From Muribaculaceae bacterium (GTDB taxonomy: Bacteria > Bacteroidota > Bacteroidia > Bacteroidales > Muribaculaceae), in NCBI GenBank assembly GCA_029063895.1, contig JAIDNJ010000058.1:1-49546 (forward strand): a DNA stretch of 49,546 bases. The letters are read 5' to 3'. The position numbers and the translations under genes were made by a program. Shown here piece by piece: positions 28,034 to 34,494 of the stretch (the first letter of the stretch is position 1; each line of letters begins with the position of its first letter). Below the pieces are notes generated by a model that saw only the letters and a list, made by a program, of their open reading frames with translations, was not told where the DNA came from and made no database searches.

Positions 28034-28084
28034 GGAATGGCATAAAGGATTTACTTAGCAAAAACACACAATAACAACAAGTGG

Positions 28085-28124
28085 TGTCACGCAGCCCTGT
28101 GATGGGGTTTGCGTGACATTTTTT
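28085..28124 (+). terminator. Terminator of the pilus operon
   Basis: TGTCACGCA ... TGCGTGACA 9-bp stem (28085-28093 / 28110-28118) followed by TTTTTT. Confidence 0.85.
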
Positions 28125-28579
28125 GTTATATTTAACCGCAGATTGCGCGGATTAATTTTTGACAGGGGGGTAATACATCGTCGGCGCGAGGCCGACTCTT
28201 CGGGTCGAGAGGGTGGTGTTTCCGACAGCTCGCTAAGGCTCGCAATCGGTTAACTATAAATCGTCTGTTTCACCGACTCTATTGCGGGCGCCGGTTGTTA
28301 GGTGGATGTATCGTTGGAGACGATAAACCGGTCATGCAGGGGAGGTAACCCTAATTGATAATTTGAAAGCGCGGAGAGTCAGGAAAGTCTCAACATTAGA
28401 GTCGGGGTTATCACGATTGTATTATGAGGTCGGGCCTGAGCGACTTTGGGAATGAAATAAGGTGGTTAATACATCGTGGGTTTCACCGACTCTATGCCTA
28501 AATCTGGCCGGGTTAAATGTTGAGGCTATTTGAGATAAATATTAATTAAATATTGTATGAAATACTATGTTTAGAAATA

Positions 28580-28600
28580 AAATCTCTTTGTAAGAGATAT
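28580..28600 (+). repeat. Left arm of 21-bp perfect inverted repeat (candidate inversion site)
   Basis: AAATCTCTTTGTAAGAGATAT; itself contains the palindrome ATCTCTT-TGT-AAGAGAT. Confidence 0.95.
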
Positions 28601-28911
28601 TACTGGCTATCCAAATGGTTGATTGATGGATATTTATCATTAATTCAATTCACAATTTTTTAAACAAAAAAAGATTAAAGCAAAATTACTGATTATCAGG
28701 GTAGTGTTAAATAAATTAAGTTAAAGGTTTAAAACCGGTTACTGACATTCTCCGATTCATTTTTAACATTCCCTTGACGAGAGATTTTATTAACATTATA
28801 ATTGCTTTATAGTTAATGGATTAGTAACTATATAATAGAAATTTTGTAAAACAGAACCGGTAAATTTCTAAAAAATCTGAAATAGAGGCCTTAAATTAGT
28901 GGCCTATTTTG

Positions 28912-28942
28912 TTGCATATTAAGAATGGAATACCTATATTTG
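28912..28942 (+). promoter_or_regulatory. Promoter for susC inside the inverted-repeat-bounded segment (TTG-N20-TATATTTG)
   Basis: -33 TTG 28912-28914, N20, -7 TATATTTG 28935-28942, 11 nt before the right arm. Confidence 0.75.
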
Positions 28943-28953
28943 CAAAAGTTTAC

Positions 28954-28974
28954 ATATCTCTTACAAAGAGATTT
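28954..28974 (-). repeat. Right arm of 21-bp perfect inverted repeat (candidate inversion site)
   Basis: ATATCTCTTACAAAGAGATTT, exact reverse complement of 28580-28600. Confidence 0.95.
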
Positions 28975-29210
28975 GAATTCGACCTGCCTTTTCAGGCGCT
29001 CTAATTAACTGACTATTAACCCTTTTTTAAACAATCATTTTAACAACCCTGCTCTGTGTCCCGGTTTTTTGGACCTGATCTGATTCCCTAATTCATTTTA
29101 ATTTCAACGAAGGGGACACATTGCAAACAATTTTTATAAACCCTGAAAACGTAATTTCAGAAATCATCTAAATTACCATAATTATTAACAACCAACCATT
29201 CTCATTTCTT

Positions 29211-32200
29211 ATGAAAAAGCAATTTGCATTGTTAGCAGCGCTTGCCTTGACTTGTGGAGCTCCCGCTTTCTCGGGCAGTATCCTCGGCCAGACAGGATTT
29301 ACCGCTGCCGCACAGGCGCAGAAAGCGACCGGTACAGTCGTTGACGAAGCCGGCGAACCGCTGCCCGGTGTATCAATCATTGTCAAAGGCAGTCAAGGTG
29401 GTGTTGCCTCGGATATCGACGGTAAGTTCACCCTCAATGCCAAACCGGGCGATGTGCTTAAATTTACTTACATCGGTTACAAACCCGTAGAAGTGAAATT
29501 TAACGGTCAGCCCCTTAATGTTACTATGAATCCCGATGTGGAAACTCTCGACGAAATCGTGGTTGTAGGTTACGGTTCGCAGCGTCGCGAACACCTCACC
29601 GGTGCCGTTTCGAGCGTTGACGTTTCTAAAACTCTCCAGGGCCGTCAGATTGCCGACGTCGGCCGTGGTCTTCAGGGTACCACTCCCGGTCTTAACGTTG
29701 TTCTCCCCAACGGTGAAATCGGTTCTGACCCCACTATCAAAATCCGCGGTCAGGTTGCATCGCTCAACGGTTCGGCCAACCCGCTCATCCTTCTCGACAA
29801 CGTTGAAATCCCCTCGATTCAGCTCGTAAACCCCGACGATATCGAACAGATTTCAGTACTTAAAGACGCCGCTGCAGCTTCAATCTACGGTTCAAAGGCT
29901 GCATTTGGTGTTATCCTTATCAAAACAAAACAGGGCGCCAAAACCGACCGTGTTGATGTGACCTACTCGGGTAACTTCGCATGGCAGCGCATCTCTAAAA
30001 ACATGGAGATGGGTACAATCGACGCTACTCAGTATCGTGTAGACGCTCTCGAACGTTCCGGTGGTACTTATGCCGGTGCATTCTGGTATGTTAACCGGGA
30101 AGCTCTCGAGCGTCAGCGCGAATGGCTCGCCAACTATGACGGTGTTATCGGCATGAATGATCCCTTTACCTACGGTCGTGACTGGTATGTCGACAATAAC
30201 AACCGCAAAATCTATATCCGTCCCTACGATCCGTACGATTACATGATCCGTGACTGGGCTCCCTCAATGACCCACAACGTTTCGGTTAACGGTAAATCGG
30301 GCAAGACTTCGTTCAATATCGGTCTCGGCTATCTCGATCAGAACGGTCTTATCAAACCCGCCAAAAATGATGACTACCGTCGTTACAATGCTTCGGCCCG
30401 CGTAACAACCGAATTCAACAAATATCTTACTATACGCGGCGGTCTCAACTACTCGCTCCGTAACAAACGTTATGCCTACGCTACCAACTCGACTACTGCC
30501 GACCCCTGGTTGTATCTCTATCGTTGGGACGCATATGCACCTCACGGCGAGGATGAAAACGGTCACCTGATGCAGTCACCCTCAACCGAAATGAAGTTGG
30601 CCAACACTGCCAACCGCGAGGATGCTTATCTTAGCGTTAACGTAGGTTTCACCATCAACTTTACCAACAACTGGCGCTATAACCTCGACTATACATACGC
30701 TTCTGAAAACCAGACCATCAACAAGCCCGGTACCAAATTTACCTATGCTACAACCTGGTATTCGCCTGTTGCACGCTATGACGAAAACGGCGACCGCGTG
30801 TATGTCAACAAGGCCGGTCAGGTCGTTCCTTCAACCGACCCCGAAGCGATGGCAGCCTATGACCTGAACTACTATCAGTATACTGCCGATGGCGCTAACC
30901 CCGACCACATCCGTCGTGAATCGACCAATGCCAAACGTCACACTCTCAACATGACTATGGACTACAACTGGGATATCAACGACGACAACAACCTCAAGGC
31001 CATGATCGGTATGAACCGCACCGACTGGGAATCAAAACAGCACTGGTCGCAGATCACTAACCTCACCGACATCGTTTCTCCCTCGTTTGACAAGACCAAC
31101 GGCACTCAGACTTCATCGGGTAACGACTACTGGGATGGTCAGCTCGGTTTCTTCGGCCGTATCAACTATGCCCTCTATGGCCGCTATCTTCTCGAAGCCA
31201 ACTACCGCTATGACGGTTCTTCTAAATTCCCCAAAGGAATGAAATGGCGCTCGTTCCCCTCGGTTTCAATCGGTTGGCGTGTTGATCAGGAAAAATTCAT
31301 GAACTGGGCCAAACCTACTCTCGATTCATTCAAGCTCCGCGCTTCTTGGGGTCGCATCGGTGACCAGTCGGTAAGCTCGTCACTCTATATCCCCACCCTT
31401 TCACAGAGCCAGATCAACTGGATTAATTCTGCAGGCTCTAAATTTGTAGGTGTAGGTACTCCCTCGGCTGTCGCAGGCGACATCACCTGGCAGGATATCG
31501 AGACAACCAACATCGGTCTTGACGCCCGTCTCTTCAATGAACTCGGCATCGTCTTTGACTGGTATCAGCGTGACACCAAAAACATGATTGTTCCCTCGGC
31601 CGGTATTCCTACCACTTTTGGTGCGGCTGCTCCCTCGGGTAACTACGGTAACCTCCGCACCCGCGGTTGGGAACTTGCTATCGACTACAACCACTCGTTC
31701 AATAAAGACCTCTCGATCAATGCTGTCTTCACTATCTCGGATGCACGTACCAAAATCACCAAATACAATCCCGCTGTAGGTGACCAGGCTACAATCACCA
31801 ACTGGTATGACGGTAAGGAATATGGTGAAATCTGGGGTTACAAAGTTGATCGCCTCTATCAGAAAGATGACTTCCTCTACAATGCCGACGGTTCGTTCCA
31901 GACTGTATGGGTTGCCAACGGTAAAATCGTTGAAGAAGGTACTGTAGGTGCCAAACTCATGAACAAACTCTCTGACCCCAACGGTGTATATCAGGATTAC
32001 TTCCAGCCCAGCGACAACCTCCGCTTTGGCCCCGGTGATATCAAATATGTCGATGTTGACGGTGACGGCGAAATCAGAGATAGAGCCAACACTCTTGAAA
32101 ATCATGGCGACAAAGTTAAAATCGGTAACTCTACTCCCCGCTTTGAATATGGTATCCGCCTCGGCGTAAACTACAAGGACTTTGACTTCTCAATCTTTGG

Positions 32201-32669
32201 TCAGGGTATCGGTTCTCGCAAGATCTGGGGTGCCGGCTTCCTCGCTATCCCCGGTTACAACACCGGTGACGGTGCGATTCCCCAGGCAATCGCCGGTGAC
32301 TACTGGCGTGAAGACCGCACCGATGCATTCTATCCCCGCCCCTATAACCTTGGCGGTAACAACTCGGGCGGCCTCTTCCAGCAGAGCGACCGCTACTTGC
32401 TCAACATGGCATATTTCCGTATCAAGAACATCACACTCGGTTATACCATTCCGCAGAATATCACCCGCAAGGCTTATATCCAGAAGGCTCGCTTCTATCT
32501 CGCTTGTGAGAACTTCTTCACCTTTGACAAACTTCACGGACTCCCCATCGATCCTGAAGTTATCTCGGGTGTGTCGATGTGGAACTCTTCAAACTATAAC
32601 TCGGGCCGTACCGGTGTAGGTACTCCCGCTATGAAGAATATCAACTTCGGTATTCAGTTAAATTTCTAA
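29211..32669 (+). CDS. SusC/RagA-family TonB-linked outer membrane protein
   Basis: 1152 aa; N-terminal carboxypeptidase-like repeat (ATGTVVDEAGEPLPGVSIIVKG), TonB box region EIVVVGYGSQRREHLTGAVSSV. Confidence 0.97.
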   Translation: MKKQFALLAALALTCGAPAFSGSILGQTGFTAAAQAQKATGTVVDEAGEPLPGVSIIVKGSQGGVASDIDGKFTLNAKPGDVLKFTYIGYKPVEVKFNGQPLNVTMNPDVETLDEIVVVGYGSQRREHLTGAVSSVDVSKTLQGRQIADVGRGLQGTTPGLNVVLPNGEIGSDPTIKIRGQVASLNGSANPLILLDNVEIPSIQLVNPDDIEQISVLKDAAAASIYGSKAAFGVILIKTKQGAKTDRVDVTYSGNFAWQRISKNMEMGTIDATQYRVDALERSGGTYAGAFWYVNREALERQREWLANYDGVIGMNDPFTYGRDWYVDNNNRKIYIRPYDPYDYMIRDWAPSMTHNVSVNGKSGKTSFNIGLGYLDQNGLIKPAKNDDYRRYNASARVTTEFNKYLTIRGGLNYSLRNKRYAYATNSTTADPWLYLYRWDAYAPHGEDENGHLMQSPSTEMKLANTANREDAYLSVNVGFTINFTNNWRYNLDYTYASENQTINKPGTKFTYATTWYSPVARYDENGDRVYVNKAGQVVPSTDPEAMAAYDLNYYQYTADGANPDHIRRESTNAKRHTLNMTMDYNWDINDDNNLKAMIGMNRTDWESKQHWSQITNLTDIVSPSFDKTNGTQTSSGNDYWDGQLGFFGRINYALYGRYLLEANYRYDGSSKFPKGMKWRSFPSVSIGWRVDQEKFMNWAKPTLDSFKLRASWGRIGDQSVSSSLYIPTLSQSQINWINSAGSKFVGVGTPSAVAGDITWQDIETTNIGLDARLFNELGIVFDWYQRDTKNMIVPSAGIPTTFGAAAPSGNYGNLRTRGWELAIDYNHSFNKDLSINAVFTISDARTKITKYNPAVGDQATITNWYDGKEYGEIWGYKVDRLYQKDDFLYNADGSFQTVWVANGKIVEEGTVGAKLMNKLSDPNGVYQDYFQPSDNLRFGPGDIKYVDVDGDGEIRDRANTLENHGDKVKIGNSTPRFEYGIRLGVNYKDFDFSIFGQGIGSRKIWGAGFLAIPGYNTGDGAIPQAIAGDYWREDRTDAFYPRPYNLGGNNSGGLFQQSDRYLLNMAYFRIKNITLGYTIPQNITRKAYIQKARFYLACENFFTFDKLHGLPIDPEVISGVSMWNSSNYNSGRTGVGTPAMKNINFGIQLNF

Positions 32670-32688: not shown

Positions 32689-34494
32689 ATGAAAAAATAT
32701 ATAATTCTTTCAGCACTCGCGCTCGGAATGTCACTTGCATCTTGCAATGACATTCTCGACCGTCCGCAATTGAATACTCCGACCGACGAGAGCTTCTGGA
32801 ATTCAGAGAGCGACGTGCGTCTCTATGCCAACAGCTTCTATACTACATATTTTGTAGGTTACAGCTCGGGTTGGACAAGCACATATACTCCGGTGCGCGG
32901 CATGACTTTTGCCGATGACTTCACTACCACCGGTCAGCAGACAAACTTCATCTCAACCATCCCGTCTTCACTTTCCTCGACTACGGGTACCAGCAACCTG
33001 AGTCAGACTTGCGGTCAAACATGGGACTTCTCAAACGTGCGTAAAGCCAACGTCATGCTTGACCGTCTTGAAAGCCGCATGCAGAATGTTCTTTCAACCG
33101 AGCAGTACAACCACTGGAAAGCCGTGGGTGAGTTCTTCAAAGCTTTTGAATACACTCTTCTCGTGACTTCGTTTGGTGACGTTCCCTATTTTGAACATGA
33201 AGTATCGTCAAGCGATACCGAGGAACTCTATAAAGACCGTGATTCACGCGACTTGGTAATGGGTAAAGTTTATGACCTTTGCAAAGACGTAATGGCCAAT
33301 ATGCGCGAAAACGACGGCTCAAACGTTCTTAACCGTTACGTTGCCGCCGGTTTCATCAGCCGTTGGATGCTCTTCGAGGGTACCTGGCAAAAGTATCACT
33401 TCGGTAACACTACCCTTGCCAACAAATATCTTGAGTTTGCAGTAGAAGCCGCTGACTATGTCATCAACAGTGGTAATTATGCCATCCAGACTGCTATGCC
33501 CGAGCTCTTTGGTTCATATGACCTCTCTACAAACAAAGAATGTCTCATCTATCGCAAATATAGCGATGCTCAGGCCGTTCGCCACTGTATCGCCTCTTAT
33601 TGCAACGGTAAAGAATCTCAGCCCGCTGTAGTAAACCTCGCGTTCCTGAAATCAATCATCTGTAACGACGGTAAACCCTACAAGACTTCAAGTGTTGAAG
33701 GTGCCGATAACTTCAAGCTCTCTAACCTTGCCGTTACCCGCGACCCCCGTTTCGAGTCTTGCTTCTCTGATCAGGCAAACATCAACTCGGCTACCCGCGT
33801 TTATGGCCGTAAGTTTATCGACCGTTATGCATGGACCCGTCCTGCCGGTGACACCAACCCCCTCTATGAGAGTGTAACCAACGTCAACGACGCTCCCGTT
33901 ATGCGCTATGGTGAGGTTCTCCTCAACTGGATCGAGGCAAAAGCTGAGCTTGGTAACGTTTCTCAGGCCGATATCGACAAATCGATCAACGCCCTCCGCG
34001 CCCGTCCCCTCGACGCAACCGCTGTCGAGAAAGGTGTTAAACAGACCGCTCCCATGGTTCTCGCTGACATCAACGCCGGTTTTGACCCCGACCGTGATGC
34101 CGATGTTGAGCCCCTTATCTGGGAAATCCGTCGTGAACGTCGTCTTGAGCTCGTTTATGAGTACAGCCGCCTTGTTGACATCCGCCGTTGGAAAAAACTC
34201 GACTACATGGATAACAACAAGAACCCCGACACTATGCTCGGTCCCTGGATTGACTTCAACGAAGAACTTACTACCTCTCTTACCGAGGGTAGCACCCAGG
34301 TTCAGAAACTTGATGGTACCGTTGTTACCTATGATGGCAAGAACGCTGCCGACATGGTTGGTTTCTACGTTCCCCTCAAAATCGTTGCACGTAGTGCCTT
34401 CAGCGACCGTTCTTATCTCTATCCTGTAGGAACAGCACAGATTTCTCAATATCAGGAGGTCGGTAAGACTCTTTCACAGACTACCGGCTGGTAA
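32689..34494 (+). CDS. SusD/RagB-family nutrient-binding lipoprotein
   Basis: 601 aa; lipobox LASC, FWNSESDVRLYANSFY, EIRRERRLELVYEYSRLVDIRRWKKL. Confidence 0.96.
   Translation: MKKYIILSALALGMSLASCNDILDRPQLNTPTDESFWNSESDVRLYANSFYTTYFVGYSSGWTSTYTPVRGMTFADDFTTTGQQTNFISTIPSSLSSTTGTSNLSQTCGQTWDFSNVRKANVMLDRLESRMQNVLSTEQYNHWKAVGEFFKAFEYTLLVTSFGDVPYFEHEVSSSDTEELYKDRDSRDLVMGKVYDLCKDVMANMRENDGSNVLNRYVAAGFISRWMLFEGTWQKYHFGNTTLANKYLEFAVEAADYVINSGNYAIQTAMPELFGSYDLSTNKECLIYRKYSDAQAVRHCIASYCNGKESQPAVVNLAFLKSIICNDGKPYKTSSVEGADNFKLSNLAVTRDPRFESCFSDQANINSATRVYGRKFIDRYAWTRPAGDTNPLYESVTNVNDAPVMRYGEVLLNWIEAKAELGNVSQADIDKSINALRARPLDATAVEKGVKQTAPMVLADINAGFDPDRDADVEPLIWEIRRERRLELVYEYSRLVDIRRWKKLDYMDNNKNPDTMLGPWIDFNEELTTSLTEGSTQVQKLDGTVVTYDGKNAADMVGFYVPLKIVARSAFSDRSYLYPVGTAQISQYQEVGKTLSQTTGW

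Follow-up and report, generated by a model that had tools for sequence, protein, structure and literature searches.

A candidate invertible promoter upstream of susC/susD in a Muribaculaceae genome and a class of ATCTC-N7-GAGAT sites in Bacteroidales

Background

Invertons with palindromic arms of the GTTAC-GTAAC or GCTAC type, accompanied by an adjacent tyrosine recombinase, have been described in B. thetaiotaomicron and B. xylanisolvens, with GCTAC arms in P. distasonis (PMC12118408). At resistance and glycan loci, an invertase gene is followed by an invertible promoter (-33 TTTG, -7 TANNTTTG) and then by upxY or glycan genes (PMC8748976), and invertible SusC/SusD regions have been documented in Bacteroidales of the human gut (PMC10939037). 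In B. fragilis, Tsr0667 is the invertase of the SusC/SusD shufflon regions and of nine others, and Tsr19 (BF2766) acts on a local as well as a distant promoter (PMC4747536).

Here we analyze a stretch of 49,546 nucleotides (the window; contig JAIDNJ010000058.1, designated C216) from the genome of a Muribaculaceae bacterium (GCA_029063895.1, designated G000), a draft that is about 89% complete and consists of 261 contigs. The segment at positions 28601-28953 is very probably a phase-variable invertible promoter of the downstream susC/susD pair that would be flipped by a tyrosine recombinase acting in trans. Considering that both the invertase-promoter-upxY layout and SusC/SusD invertible regions are already known, the switch proposed here joins a known kind. 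For its arm, or recognition, sequence, a search of the open-licence literature yielded nothing relevant.

A promoter bracketed by a perfect inverted repeat

The segment (353 bp, not assigned to a strand, with no ORF longer than 34 codons) lies between the left arm AAATCTCTTTGTAAGAGATAT (28580-28600, plus strand, core 28582-28598), a site of the form ATCTC-TTTGTAA-GAGAT, and the right arm ATATCTCTTACAAAGAGATTT (28954-28974, minus strand, core 28956-28972), an inverted copy of this site; the arms are mutually complementary over all 21 bp and are spaced 353 bp apart. All seven overlapping 15-mer inverted matches found within 1 kb in the window come from the arm pair, whereas 100 first-order random sequences with the dinucleotide make-up of the window average 0.04 such matches and never exceed 1, and the pair is the sole inverted repeat listed in the window with 14-mer seeds and distances up to 1.5 kb. 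Only two sites in the window fall within 3 mismatches of the arm, and the 17-mer arm core has no further copy in the 2.58-Mb assembly at one mismatch or fewer. Both arms are 7+3+7 palindromes, centred on TGT or ACA, that can equally be written as 5-N7-5, the half-site ATCTC and the 7-nt centre TTTGTAA being exact in both arms.

Within the segment, a predicted promoter TTG-N20-TATATTTG (28912-28942, plus strand, with TATATTTG at 28935-28942) faces susC, and the inverted repeats bracket this intergenic promoter as they do in invertons. The perfect repeat around 353 bp, the asymmetric centres of the palindromes and the TTG-N20 promoter facing susC had all been proposed in the initial annotation, and they hold as described. 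The same annotation saw no TAnnTTTG element at the other end that could replace this promoter after a flip, a remark that needs qualification. A second such element, TAATTTTG, with TTTA-N19, lies on the minus strand at 28688-28681, in mid-segment, some 82 nt away from the left arm core; after inversion it would point at susC, but it is outside the fixed arm distance that is typical of related segments (see below), and may have arisen by chance. With TAATTTTG in mid-segment, the flipped state need not be fully silent.

A decayed third site at 28765-28797, considered because relatives have three-site arrays, was rejected given that 46% of shuffled sequences match equally well. The segment has no DNA similarity to phages, and no known RNA element from Rfam was matched in the window. 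Upstream, at 28140-28520, there are two copies, 213 bp apart, of an interspersed repeat of the genus (GTTTCACCGACTCTAT and neighbouring sequence), other copies of which are present on contigs C45, C98, C44 and C180 of the same genome, with 14 matches in the related genome G002.

On the upstream side, a terminator-like hairpin followed by a T-run (28076-28127, plus strand, TTTTTT after the stem) is located 3' of a fimbrial operon with fimbrillin-like genes. On the downstream side, a leader of 236 nt (28975-29210, plus strand) separates the putative switch from susC; its last stretch is conserved with the leaders of susC genes of the same genus, with 88-90% nucleotide identity around the start codon to the orthologs in G002 and G004. 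The susC gene (29211-32669, plus strand) encodes a SusC/RagA-family TonB-dependent outer membrane transporter of 1152 aa (PF13715, PF07715, PF00593) that scores 806.6 bits against TIGR04056, above the curated cut-off of 368.25, and has orthologs with about 88% amino acid identity in G002 (on contigs C12 and C16) and G004 (C172). The susD gene (32689-34494, plus strand), presumably co-transcribed with susC, encodes the lipoprotein partner (601 aa; PF07980, PF14322), with orthologs in G002 and G004 at 84-86% amino acid identity.

Comparison with described inversion systems

The closest parallel is the GTTAC class, with which the locus shares palindromic 5-N7-5 arms, a promoter of the invertible -33/-7 type, a related tyrosine recombinase (see below) and the C-TTNNNAA-G centre, as in the GTTAC copies GTTACTTTAGAAGTAAC and others. 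It differs from that class in the half-site, which is ATCTC, in having no recombinase adjoining the segment, and in the controlled genes, which are susC/susD as opposed to a capsule operon in the GTTAC examples. That the arms do not contain GTTAC-N7-GTAAC had been pointed out before and is borne out; given that the TTNNNAA centre is common to both classes and only the outer bases differ, the missing GTTAC is no objection to the inverton interpretation. The proposed switch would work like the GTTAC invertons, yet by its half-site it is not a member of the GTTAC class.

Like Tsr0667, the proposed enzyme would be an invertase acting in trans on SusC/SusD outer membrane protein loci; judged by description, the window locus is set apart by consisting of one simple promoter segment with two sites only, as opposed to a shufflon. 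With Tsr19, also compared by description, it would share a tyrosine recombinase, promoter inversion and action at a distance, and three sites are likewise present at some loci of the window's genus; the targets of Tsr19 are EPS and lipoprotein loci. The layout reported in PMC8748976 is matched by a locus on the B. fragilis plasmid NZ_CP069564.1 (L320), where a recombinase of the family discussed below is encoded upstream of UpxY and polysaccharide genes, with TTCTC-type arms; no invertase adjoins the window locus, whose predicted targets are susC/susD. The same recombinase family and TTCTC-type arms are also present in the phage record MT835494.1 (L322). Finally, the Mpi-controlled capsule promoters of B. 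fragilis resemble the proposed switch in that promoter inversion is controlled globally and in trans (PMC4747536), but Mpi is a serine recombinase, and no small serine invertase was found in the window genome at its completeness of about 89%.

A class of ATCTC-N7-GAGAT sites with matching centres

The 17-mer arm core is present, at one mismatch or fewer, in 70 of the 397 genomes of the family, in most cases as inverted pairs with a spacing of 166-374 bp, and a pattern scan of GTDB identified at least 113 stretches, with Phocaeicola, Mediterranea, Dysgonomonas, Prevotella-like bacteria and Muribaculaceae among the matches listed. Five perfect pairs were detected in P. vulgatus ATCC 8482 and nine in P. 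massiliensis, where the reversed control pattern had zero matches. The window genome itself encompasses two further site pairs. Relative to this class, the window segment is long (353 bp; measured between 15-mer cores, the class has a median of about 171 bp and a range of 141-447).

The promoter geometry is shared across the class. An outward-facing TAnnTTTG is located at exactly one inner end in 117 of 127 non-redundant segments, compared with about 0.1 ends per segment in shuffled sequences, and the 114 promoters that could be aligned lie 9-16 nt from the arm core, with a mode at 14 nt and a weaker TTG/TTTG at N20. In the window, the distance from the promoter to the right arm core is 14 nt, the modal value (53 of the 114).

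With pairs defined by the outer letters alone, 148 non-redundant pairs were obtained. In 129 of them, including that of the window, the two 7-nt centres are exact reverse complements, and 37 different centres occur; when the right arms were permuted among loci 10,000 times, identity was found in 5.3 pairs on average and in 17 at most. Centres that are identical within a pair but variable between loci are what is expected of crossover cores, because strand exchange needs this identity and an operator does not. The arms could alternatively be operators for a dimeric repressor or activator, with no inversion and an arrangement that just permits looping over the promoter; each arm is a palindrome, as operators are, and the predicted start of transcription is located just ahead of the right arm. 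We consider this very unlikely, as it requires no identity of the centre within pairs that differ between loci and is at odds with the association of the sites with a tyrosine recombinase and with the occurrence of one segment of the class in both orientations, which are described below.

The three exact direct pairs that were detected are neighbours within three-site arrays of the window's genus. Three-site arrays at L025, L030 and L031 consist of two direct sites and one inverted site, which allows excision as well as inversion. Several assemblies break at the arms (for example G254:C186:4210-4226, G254:C35:1-17, G124:C157:1-17, G003:C25:30-46), which fits the coexistence of orientations, though short repeats alone could cause such breaks.

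Orientation of the segment at related loci

One SusC-linked segment occurs in opposite orientations in two related genomes. The left flanks of L160 (a MAG labelled Bacteroides sp. S18_Bin4) and L201 (G063:C1) are 97% identical (97/101), and 178 of the 190 positions of the segment align (94%) solely when it is inverted; in L201 the promoter faces the SusC gene. Some candidates for opposite orientation were discarded, their flanks being inverted repeats in their own right or cut by contig ends, and all comparisons employ assemblies, in which the orientation represents the majority or an arbitrary path. Orientations differ also between the paralogous loci on contigs C66 and C107 of G260. Among loci of the same layout, the promoter points toward UpxY in 6 and to the other side in 15, and toward SusC in 7 and away from it in 8, some of these loci having SusC on both sides. 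Some paralogous segments of Phocaeicola show one orientation throughout, so inversion may be infrequent or favour one direction.

Within the window's genus, site pairs persist at orthologous susC loci, where the promoter may point in either direction. On contig C12 of G002, which carries an ortholog of the window susC, the promoters point away from this gene and toward another SusC operon, and on C16 of the same genome one segment is located between two divergent copies that are 98% identical. An exact mirror artefact of assembly is an unlikely source of the latter arrangement because 79 bases and 38 gap positions distinguish the two halves, which are 98.2% identical; strain mixing may be its source. 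Segments between two divergent SusC/SusD operons are present on contig C223 of the window genome (L032:7367-7566), on C12, C16, C14 and C4 of G002 and on C52 of G004, and a flip at such segments would be predicted to swap the expressed SusC/SusD operon. At one of these loci (L186, G002:C14:173000-192000), there is a third TTTGTAA-centred site on the far side of the left SusD, such that a whole SusC/SusD operon could invert.

The window locus is represented by a single orientation, from one draft assembly. This fact, together with the lack of a local recombinase and a segment that is among the longest of the class, would fit a former switch that has become locked, with intact sites but no more inversion in this species, for want of a competent enzyme or due to the long spacer. 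We regard such decay as improbable considering that the arms are perfect, including the centre, that the candidate recombinases on contigs C60 and C56 (see below) are intact, that the genome has two further site pairs, and that the orthologous susC loci of the genus keep their site pairs with the promoter in either direction. The window segment thus probably still flips.

Candidate recombinases

As the initial annotation had stated for the window, no recombinase is encoded there: a profile search of contig C216 found no match to the tyrosine (PF00589) or serine (PF00239) recombinase domains. Two tyrosine recombinases of the site-associated family are encoded elsewhere in the genome. An ORF aimed at segments of the class, and near them in 22 cases, encodes a tyrosine recombinase (about 400 aa); about half of the recombinases that were retrieved by protein match alone (L222-L271) also have a site pair on the 3' side. 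A recombinase of this kind is encoded in 35 of the 40 family genomes with an inverted pair and in 190 of the 357 others (Fisher p = 1.2e-5, ignoring relatedness). The first of the two proteins, P0001 (C60:9540-10766, 408 aa; PF13102, PF00589, PF17293), clusters with copies from G002, G004 and G006 (support 100/99) inside the ATCTC-associated clade. The second is a 405-aa protein on contig C56 with a local variant pair, ACTC-TTCCTAA-GAGT (G000:C56:2690-2923, L218), that has a promoter inside. In P. vulgatus and its relatives, recombinases 29-35% identical to P0001 adjoin GTTAC-TTNNNAA-GTAAC pairs and form a clade of their own. Proteins of the P0001 family have a serine where arginine I is usually found, along with YxxR in place of HxxR, which we take to be features of IntDOT-like enzymes; NCBIfam offers no specific name for the recombinase.

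No site was detected within 2 mismatches beside the C60 gene, and the orthologs of P0001 in G002, G004 and G006 have no convincing local pair. In the genus, the five genomes with sites (G000, G002, G003, G004 and G006) all encode the recombinase; G001 and G007 lack sites as well as a recombinase match at E 1e-60, and G005 has a weaker recombinase match and no site. The C60 gene, which has orthologs in three related species and no site pair beside it, is likely to encode the enzyme that acts in trans at the window locus. The C56 recombinase might instead act both on its own pair and on the window locus, a variant that is compatible with the switch itself: its ACTC half-site is close to that of the window, it belongs to the same recombinase family, and Tsr19 of B. 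fragilis works both locally and at a distance (PMC4747536). This assignment appears doubtful, given that local sites are absent throughout the genus clade of the C60 gene, that the presence of the recombinase in the genus tracks that of the sites, and that the C56 protein is on a long, weakly placed branch. An Mpi-type serine invertase, by analogy with the enzyme that inverts many B. fragilis promoters (PMC4747536), is a very improbable agent, since the only serine recombinase found in the window genome (about 89% complete) is a large one of 551 aa (L216) and the sites go with tyrosine recombinases.

Proposed switch and its implications

The suggestion that the segment is a recombinase-driven invertible promoter controlled in trans gains support from the class-level evidence, namely the centres, the promoter geometry, the recombinases adjoining the sites, the occurrence of both orientations and the two recombinases encoded in the genome. 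In the model that we propose, the ATCTC-N7-GAGAT arms would serve as crossover sites for a tyrosine recombinase, and strand exchange within the 7-nt centre TTTGTAA would invert the segment. In the sequenced orientation, the promoter at the right end is predicted to drive susC/susD (ON); after inversion, it would face the terminator of the upstream fimbrial operon, and expression would be off or low (OFF). The enzyme would act in trans, the best candidate being the 408-aa recombinase of C60 and the second its 405-aa homolog of C56.

More broadly, promoter invertons with ATCTC-N7-GAGAT arms might form a recognition class of their own across the order, served by a distinct recombinase clade, and in the window's genus one solitary recombinase without sites of its own would serve several scattered SusC/SusD switches in trans; these would be mostly either/or toggles between divergent operons, differing 3-nt centres would keep some loci apart, and the window locus would represent a one-sided, on/off version. 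We judge this generalization to be about evenly balanced between right and wrong.

The range of glycans that a gut bacterium takes up depends on its SusC/SusD proteins, and if their promoter flips heritably, a clonal population would be able to hedge. The immune system can also recognize these proteins (PMC10939037). Switches of this kind are found in many related gut bacteria, and the combination of the site consensus, the fixed promoter distance and a matching recombinase provides a rule for finding such switches in Muribaculaceae and other Bacteroidales, which could also predict the state of a switch from metagenomes. The contrasting ATCTC and GTTAC half-sites, which accompany related enzymes, make recombinase specificity testable.
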